Below, in pieces: positions 6,864-44,318 of a DNA stretch of 48,347 nt. Below the pieces are notes generated by a model that did no database searches, was not told the origin of the DNA, and saw nothing but the letters and a program-made list of their open reading frames with translations. The DNA lies in NCBI GenBank assembly GCA_944323925.1, contig CALUUI010000016.1:1-48347 (forward strand), read 5' to 3'. Every line of letters begins with the position of its first letter. Positions within the stretch are counted from its first letter, which is position 1. The stretch comes from Candidatus Gastranaerophilales bacterium (GTDB lineage Bacteria > Cyanobacteriota > Vampirovibrionia > Gastranaerophilales > Gastranaerophilaceae). Made by a program: the position numbers and the translations under genes.

Positions 6864-6882
6864 TTGTAAATTTTTGTAAATA
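6864..6882. promoter_or_regulatory. TGTAA/TTACA motif
   Basis: TTGTAAATTTTTGTAAATA, two TGTAA words one helical turn apart, lies about 16 bases upstream of the sigma-28-like -35 box. Related words recur upstream of other genes of unknown function in this window (2174-2200, 15106-15125, 22591-22610, 42878-42898, 44080-44098). It could be an operator, an UP element or AT-rich chance. Confidence 0.3.
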
Positions 6883-6897
6883 TTTTATTAAAAATAT

Positions 6898-6924
6898 TAA
6901 AGATTTTTTAAGAGTTGCCGATAC
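6898..6924 (+). promoter_or_regulatory. Sigma-28 (FliA/SigD)-type promoter
   Basis: TAAAGATT (6898-6905), 11 bases, GCCGATAC (6917-6924). The textbook sigma-28 consensus is TAAAGTTT-N11-GCCGATAA, so the match is 14 of 16 with exact spacing. Transcription would start near 6931, leaving a short leader with AGGAGA before the ATG at 6959. Confidence 0.7.
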
Positions 6925-6958
6925 CTATAGTACGGAAAAATATAGGAGAAAATGAATT

Positions 6959-8347
6959 ATGGGTATGTCAGCATCACAAGCAAGGTTACTTCAACTCACT
7001 TCAACATTAAATGATGTAGAGTTTGAAGGTCAACAGATTAACATGGCGAGGACGCAATTGTCTTCAACATCTGCAAGGTATTACAATCAGTTATTAAGTA
7101 TGGAGGTCCCGACCCCGCCAAATAAAACTGATTATACAAAATTAACTTATACTTACAATGCTAATGGTTATGATTACACCATTACAAACATAGGAAATCT
7201 TGATGCCGAAGGAAATGCAATAGTTACAACTCAGCATACAGGTTATGGTGCAACCGTTTCAGGCAGCGGTACTTATAGCAAAGTAGTTACAACTGACAAA
7301 GTTGTAAAGGATACAGATAGAGGTACTATCTGCGCTAGTAATAAAGATGATTTATATACTGAAGACGGAACACCATATACTCCAATAAAAAAAGCAAATT
7401 CATATACAGAAGGTGCAACTTATGTAGATAGTACCGGTGCAAATATAGATGTAGCATCGGCTGTAAATACAGCACTAAGTTCTGGCAAATTTATTGGCGC
7501 AGATGGTAAAGTAGCCACTTCATACACTATGCCTTTGTATTCAAAAGGTGAGCAAAAAACTCAAATGGTAGATGATACATCAAAACCAATTACTGACGAC
7601 GATGGCAATATAATTGGTTATGAGCAAAAAGAAGAACCAATTGACGAATGGGAATTGGGTACAGAGTATACTCCGGAAACATTCTTTGCTCAATTAAATT
7701 TAGGTACAGATGTTAATCAAGTAGTTGATGATAGTGAAGCAACATCATTTATTGGAACCGCAGCTAAAACTGTTCAAGAATATACTATTGATGGTCAAAC
7801 TCCAATGACTTTAGATGATTTACCTGATGGAGATGCTACTAAAGCAGAACTTGAAACTGCTATTGCGCAGACAGGAAAAAGCCCAGATGATTATTATATA
7901 ATTCAAGACGGAAATTCTTATAAATTATATTTAAAAACTGATGTTAGAGATGGAAATGATTCTGCTGAAGTCCAAAAGGCAAATTATACAAATAGTGCAT
8001 TATATACAGAAAATATTGATGCTAACCTAGATTTCGGTACTGACGGAAGAATTTCATCAATAACATTATCAGATGGAACCAATATAGCTGTTACACCAAC
8101 TGTTGAAACTGATGAATTAGCTTACGAAGACGCTTACGCTCAATATACCTATGAAAAACAAATCTATGATAAAGATCAAGCAACAATTAATTCTCAACTC
8201 TCAACTATACAGGCCCAAGATAAAAAACTTGAATTGCAATTGACAGAGTTAGATACTCGCAGATCTCAAATAACAACTGAGTTAGACGCTTTGCAAACAG
8301 TTCTAGGTGATAACGTAGAAAGAACTTATAAAACATTCTCAGGTTAA
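6959..8347 (+). CDS. Flagellin-shaped protein of unknown family (MGMSASQ type)
   Basis: A 462-aa protein. An AGGAGA ribosome site lies 9 bases before the ATG. The first ~50 residues (MGMSASQARLLQLTSTLND...) are a heptad-patterned helix without a signal peptide. Residues ~60-375 are Gly/Thr/Asp/Tyr-rich and look beta-structured and variable. Residues ~385-450 are again a long coiled-coil helix (SQLSTIQAQDKKLELQLTELD...) ending in ERTYKTFSG. Helical ends around a variable beta core is the architecture of flagellin, hook-associated proteins and other axial proteins exported without a cleaved signal. With the sigma-28-type promoter, an exported filament or cap protein is a reasonable inference, but no flagellin sequence signature (such as the D0/D1 Asn-rich blocks) is present. 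I recall similar N-termini in Gastranaerophilales proteins. Monocistronic, ending at a clear terminator. Confidence 0.7.
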   Translation: MGMSASQARLLQLTSTLNDVEFEGQQINMARTQLSSTSARYYNQLLSMEVPTPPNKTDYTKLTYTYNANGYDYTITNIGNLDAEGNAIVTTQHTGYGATVSGSGTYSKVVTTDKVVKDTDRGTICASNKDDLYTEDGTPYTPIKKANSYTEGATYVDSTGANIDVASAVNTALSSGKFIGADGKVATSYTMPLYSKGEQKTQMVDDTSKPITDDDGNIIGYEQKEEPIDEWELGTEYTPETFFAQLNLGTDVNQVVDDSEATSFIGTAAKTVQEYTIDGQTPMTLDDLPDGDATKAELETAIAQTGKSPDDYYIIQDGNSYKLYLKTDVRDGNDSAEVQKANYTNSALYTENIDANLDFGTDGRISSITLSDGTNIAVTPTVETDELAYEDAYAQYTYEKQIYDKDQATINSQLSTIQAQDKKLELQLTELDTRRSQITTELDALQTVLGDNVERTYKTFSG

Positions 8348-8389: not shown

Positions 8390-8420
8390 ACTCTTCTTTT
8401 ATATAAGAAGAGTTTTTTTT
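8390..8420 (+). terminator. Rho-independent terminator
   Basis: ACTCTTCTT / AAGAAGAGT stem (8390-8398 and 8405-8413) with a 6-base loop and a run of eight T (8413-8420). It ends the transcript of the flagellin-shaped protein. Confidence 0.85.
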
Positions 8421-44031: not shown

Positions 44032-44112
44032 GTAATTTTGAATAACTTAATTATTTTTTAATTATTAGTCAGAAATAAATGTAAAATTTTGTAAAAAGAA
44101 TACAAAAAAGTA

Positions 44113-44162: not shown

Positions 44163-44318
44163 ATGCTAAAAAGATTAGAGAAACCAACCAATAATACAAG
44201 TTCATGCGTTGAATTTATATTAAGGGGAGCCAAGAAGCGGCGAACAATGGCAATAGCCGAAGCAGTCAGAGTAAATGCAGACTCAGGAATCCAAACAGAA
44301 CTGAGAGCAGTAAAATAG
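44163..44318 (+). CDS. 51-aa basic protein behind a sigma-28-type promoter
   Basis: A 51-codon frame: MLKRLEKPTN..., a Lys/Arg-rich centre (RGAKKRRTM), and a C-terminus ending QTELRAVK. AAAGGA lies 7 bases before the ATG, a sigma-28-like promoter just upstream, and a hairpin terminator ~25 bases after the stop, so the unit is complete. Base composition is richer in G and C than the surroundings, and codons include CGG and CGA, so a structured RNA rather than a protein remains possible. The sequence does not resemble FlgM or a known flagellar protein. Confidence 0.5.
   Translation: MLKRLEKPTNNTSSCVEFILRGAKKRRTMAIAEAVRVNADSGIQTELRAVK

Follow-up and report, generated by a model that had tools for sequence, protein, structure and literature searches.

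Abby and Rocha described a type III secretion system (T3SS) of the Myxococcales, which is without motility parts, as an intermediate form (PMC3459982). In gut Melainabacteria, partial sets of flagellar genes were interpreted as flagellum loss or genome reduction (Di Rienzi 2013, PMC3787301; Soo 2014, PMC4040986), and a two-gene regulon was reported for sigma-28 of Chlamydia (PMC10597470). A literature search, mostly without subscription journals, returned no publication that describes a type III system for the bacterial group studied here. We analyzed a stretch of 48,347 nucleotides (the window; contig CALUUI010000016.1) from a Candidatus Gastranaerophilales bacterium, whose assembly is of the Gastranaerophilales type (1.94 Mb, 42 contigs), and a gene in it that encodes a 462-amino-acid protein of an unnamed family. 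On balance, we favor the reading that this protein is a subunit of axial type, exported and associated with a second flagellum-derived, non-motile T3SS, and that it is a late product transcribed by a FliA/WhiG-type sigma factor.

A conserved sigma-28-type promoter

A preliminary description of the window had reported a sigma-28-type promoter in front of the gene. The promoter stands, in position as well as in spacing, and is conserved and enriched beyond chance. Specifically, TAAAGATT-N11-GCCGATAC spans 6898-6924 and begins 61 nt before the ATG at 6959. The features of the window are as follows.

6864-6880, + strand: TTGTAAA-N3-TTGTAAA direct repeat upstream of the −35 element, putative activator site
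6898-6905, + strand: sigma-28-type −35 element TAAAGATT, conserved in relatives
6917-6924, + strand: sigma-28-type −10 element GCCGATAC, after an 11-nt spacer, conserved in relatives
6944-6949, + strand: ribosome-binding site AGGAGA, from the sequence
6959-8347, + strand: coding sequence of the 462-amino-acid protein of the unnamed axial-type family (MGMSASQARLLQL...ERTYKTFSG), the stop codon ending at 8347
6962-7099, + strand: conserved N-terminal helix, residues 2-47, from the predicted model (block pLDDT, the per-residue model confidence, mostly 84-88) and the family alignment
7136-8110, + strand: variable beta-rich middle, residues 60-384, from the predicted model, differing in length and sequence among the family
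8114-8338, + strand: conserved C-terminal helix, residues 386-460, from the predicted model and the family alignment
8390-8420, + strand: terminator-like hairpin ACTCTTCTT...AAGAAGAGT with a T run after it, read by eye and unscored
44113-44138, + strand: second sigma-28-type site, TAAAGTTT-N11-GCCGACA, with its own TGTAA repeat at 44080-44095
44163-44318, + strand: open reading frame (ORF) of 51 amino acids, 50 nt past the start of the second sigma-28-type site

The hairpin after the stop codon suggests a putative single-gene transcript. At the left edge of the window, the − strand holds an open-ended frame of 722 codons.

The promoter type TAAAGTTT-N11-GCCGATAA is conserved among orthologues of the window gene, and in all four of its close orthologues (47-85% identity) TAAAG-N14-GCCGT is found at −63 to −68 from the ATG. 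Across the protein family, TAAAG-N13-16-CCG[AT] lies at −45 to −85 in 40 of 80 upstream regions versus 4 of 565 other ORFs of the same loci, and two of these four are themselves family members. The Fisher p of ~1e-36 is nominal and overstates independence, because the upstream sequences share descent. A TTGACTTT element replaces the FliA type in another 22 of the 80 regions, none of which carries the FliA type.

Genome-wide, we counted the strict pattern TAAAGWTT-N11-12-GCCG, with the reversed pattern as the control. The window's own genome has 21 sites versus 4 in the control. Among Gastranaerophilaceae, the 74 flagellin-negative genomes have 941 sites versus 261, and the 23 flagellin-positive genomes 345 versus 73. 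A family lacking a FliA match shows no enrichment (50 genomes; 178 sites versus 380 in the control). A looser pattern with one mismatch gives a modest excess in the own genome (42 versus 28); that search is noisy, partly through coding repeats at C1:244283-244596 and near position 1022 of the window, where the repeats at 1022-1047 produce a spurious match. The site list of the own genome was drawn from stretches and is biased to places first picked up by the motif. In the own genome, the motif also lies upstream of a protein with GAF and HD domains (C1:4436), and similar-looking proteins follow the motif in genomes G102, G153 and G108.

TGTAA direct repeats, one helical turn apart, stand at fixed distances before the −35 element of FliA-type promoters. 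Counted from TAAAG in the 40 family promoters, they start at −33/−34 (26 occurrences) and −23/−24 (20 occurrences). They are a possible site for an OmpR/PhoB-like activator. Similar TGTAA repeats are found upstream of two flagellin genes of the own genome.

A fliA-like sigma factor, which the preliminary description had proposed to look for, is present in the genome at C5:47673-48335 (TIGR02479, 232 bits versus a cut-off of 189.6). Eleven matches in this genome lie above the cut-off for sigma region 4, some of which are not sigma factors; when five sigma region 4 matches were tested with NCBIfam, only the one at C5 cleared the FliA/WhiG cut-off. At a strict threshold, in a scan of 194 genomes of the class, exactly one FliA/WhiG match was found in each of the 97 Gastranaerophilaceae genomes. 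For FlgM, a small ORF between flgJ and flgN gives no match in Pfam, and no genome-wide FlgM search was made. Two flagellin genes of the own genome without the FliA motif (L181, 7634 and 8928, both on the − strand) share an upstream GTTATTA...GGAATA, in these two cases only. This sequence resembles SigB/SigF-type promoters, and a SigF-like sigma factor is encoded on contig C3.

A protein family with a predicted axial-type fold

The family is large, and its members come from gut-dwelling relatives of the cyanobacteria. The own genome encodes several paralogues with common ends and differing middles, including the predicted ones of the MGMSASQ type. A family profile finds members in all 97 sampled Gastranaerophilaceae genomes, several copies in each, and also matches the order's one genome from another family and three further families of the class. 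Near-identical truncated family genes at the ends of contigs C7 and C21 probably reflect a recent duplication collapsed in the assembly.

The protein was said to be without signal peptide and without a flagellin signature, and it has neither. The 462-amino-acid protein has no hydrophobic N-terminal segment. Pfam gives no match for any of 42 family members at E 0.001, including the flagellin domains PF00669 and PF00700, and hhalign likewise gives no flagellin match. Pfam and NCBIfam return only weak coiled-coil matches for the window protein, below the cut-off.

The predicted fold of the window protein is a long helix, a beta-rich middle and a second long helix, the two helices running antiparallel with the middle inserted between them. 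Model confidence is high for both ends and for much of the middle and lower for the overall arrangement, with a pTM (the model's global fold score) of 0.45. The best Foldseek matches are flagellar cap and filament proteins, with weak E-values. In structural alignment, flagellar axial proteins make up 29 of the best 31 rows, with Z of 9.8 for the FlgK junction, 9.7 for FliD, ~9 for filaments, 8.4 for FlgL, 8.0 for the distal rod and 7.6 for the hook. The uniformity of these axial matches to the model is a stronger point than the Z values themselves. As far as a predicted model can carry it, the axial-type nature of the protein is well supported, not proven.

A second, flagellum-derived set of export genes

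A flagellum is encoded in the own genome, with flagellins, FlgK, FlgL, FlgN, rod proteins and an export gate. Flagellin is present in 23 of the 97 Gastranaerophilaceae genomes and missing from 74. The own genome also has a second copy of FlhA. Its identity to the first copy is 36%, and to the FlhA proteins of the four non-flagellated genomes in the comparison it is 85%. This second type occurs in nearly all of the 97 genomes. FliP is found in 96 of the 97, and its lineages split as those of FlhA do; a 172-amino-acid FlhA fragment of G052 and a 35-amino-acid FliP fragment of L187 were omitted from the comparison. A 488-amino-acid protein of the own genome (G000, C1:47955-49421; L063 7956-9422) corresponds to the C-terminal half of FlhA only (PF00771 positions 321-656).

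In the own genome, FliE, FliF, a weakly FliG-like protein and FliH adjoin the second FlhA, and FlgB/C-like and two FlgF/G-like proteins are encoded elsewhere. In the non-flagellated genome G022, FliM/N, FliO, FliP, FliQ and FliR form one block. The rod matches, which are weak, are kept in nearly all non-flagellated genomes. A flagellum-derived export gate and basal body parts exist separately from the flagellar set. Flagellin is present in just 23 of 97 genomes, and therefore the protein family, FliA and the second system travel together without a flagellum.

Some family genes are linked to this system. In ~20 genomes, counted by eye, one contig carries both the second FlhA and, 8-17 kb away, a high-scoring family match. 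In the two genomes read fully, the order is the family protein, proteins of 271-272, 90 and 107-108 amino acids, and then FliE, FliF, the FliG-like protein, FliH and FlhA. The small protein, 107-109 amino acids long in the linked blocks, is predicted to be a helical hairpin and matches the N-terminus of the family (hhalign probability 94, 41 columns) and a family member (phmmer down to 3e-8). It may be the family core minus the inserted middle. A T3SS needle was considered for the 108-amino-acid protein and left open, its generic hairpin model matching many unrelated proteins.

Discussion

The promoter and its conservation, the FliA homologue, the family architecture, the predicted fold, the second FlhA/FliP lineage, the co-occurrence and the linkage of some members are computed results. 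In the mechanism that we propose, the FliA/WhiG-type sigma factor would transcribe the window gene late, and the second flagellum-derived T3SS would export the protein. Its helical ends would come together in the way those of flagellin, hook and FlgK/FlgL proteins do. Once paired, they would either be packed into an external tubular structure or form its cap, and the beta-rich middle would face outward. More tentatively, the mostly non-motile gut Gastranaerophilaceae could have a conserved flagellum-derived machine with an outer structure built from a new flagellin-shaped family, FliA being kept for that structure; we hold this broader picture to be possible, though somewhat short of probable.

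Several points weigh against the reading that we favor. We infer export and assembly or polymerization, which count here, as we infer transcription by FliA and the position in the structure. Aligned by hhalign with the own flagellins and FlgL, the family reaches a probability of 0.1, and a sequence search of the PDB with the family profile gave no match. The Z values of 8-10 may reflect a common long-helix arrangement, the best Foldseek E-value is only 2e-3, and neither these Z values nor the pTM of 0.45 are decisive for an axial fold. The near-complete genome G124 has no FliP match, and the FlhA match of G088 is only partial. For the second system, FliI, FlhB and an outer-membrane channel are not established and no secretin was identified, no genome-wide search having been made for any of these. 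Finally, the family members nearest the second FlhA fall into a subclass that has no FliA-type promoter. Those linked members that were examined carry the other promoter type; hence members of the FliA type, including the window gene, are located elsewhere. By analogy with the flagellum, this arrangement would have two tiers, with structural genes and linked members early and FliA-type members late.

The best surviving alternative, which we consider unlikely though worth keeping in view, is that the second system exports the protein without its polymerizing, as a secreted effector, adhesin or translocator whose N-terminal helix would be an export or chaperone-binding signal. The many differing copies per genome with hypervariable middles would suit such a role. 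The motif is also found before small unrelated proteins and before two large ones that are hydrophobic or glycine-zipper-like, and the 108-amino-acid hairpin aligns with a coiled coil of IpaB at Z 12.5, though it is a generic hairpin. However, conserved ends around a variable middle, with axial matches over the whole model, are a combination seen more typically in subunits.

That the protein belongs to the true flagellum, as a minor filament, cap or hook-associated protein of the late flagellar regulon, is strongly disfavored. In that regulon the preliminary description had tentatively placed a flagellin-shaped protein, and the two parts of the proposal fared differently: the shape is supported by the predicted helix/beta/helix fold and the axial structural matches, and the regulon is not. 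The own genome is flagellated, the promoter is of the FliA type, the predicted fold is axial, and the paralogue at C1:185835 adjoins flgG/fliK/fliJ-like genes. Nevertheless, about three quarters of the Gastranaerophilaceae genomes, the 74 without flagellin, still have the family, FliA and the motif, and in the own genome the motif, searched as a regular expression, is absent upstream of the three flagellins examined, flgK and flgL. The other option then mentioned, that sigma-28 controls something else, fits better, with proteins going with the second flagellum-derived system. An absent sigma factor, an unconserved promoter or an unrelated fold had been named in advance as refuting outcomes; the sigma factor is present, the promoter is conserved and the predicted fold is axial-like.

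A cytosolic coiled-coil protein that has no role in export and resembles axial proteins only in fold is very improbable: the family has no sequence homology to axial families and long helices yield generic structural matches, yet it co-occurs and is linked with secretion genes, has a FliA-type promoter and matches axial proteins consistently.

The window family resembles the flagellin, hook and hook-associated proteins (FliC, FlgE, FlgK, FlgL and FliD) in its conserved helical ends and variable beta-rich middle, in the lack of a Sec-type N-terminus, in the FliA-type promoter and in the axial core, which is predicted here. It differs from them in having no detectable sequence homology, in occurring in flagellin-free genomes, and in having several copies per genome with differing middles. 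If the favored reading is true, a group of gut bacteria that is common but little studied has a surface machine, so far undescribed, through which contact with the host or with other microbes could be made.

Like the T3SS of the Myxococcales (PMC3459982), the second system keeps a flagellum-derived export gate and basal body without flagellin; unlike it, the second system has four rod-like genes and a FliM/N homologue and goes with FliA and an axial-type family. The incomplete flagellar sets of Melainabacteria (PMC3787301, PMC4040986) are probably the same genes, judged from the descriptions as a whole and not gene by gene. In contrast to their interpretation as flagellum loss or genome reduction, the genes here belong to a lineage of their own, found side by side with a full flagellum in flagellated relatives, and our data indicate that the retained flagellar genes are a distinct, conserved secretion system with its own axial-type family and FliA-type promoter motif. 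As in Chlamydia (PMC10597470), a FliA-type sigma factor would be used for something other than a flagellum. Here, however, the motif is enriched in many genomes, before axial-type and other proteins, which, if the reading holds, would be a new example of sigma-28 persisting after the flagellum is gone.
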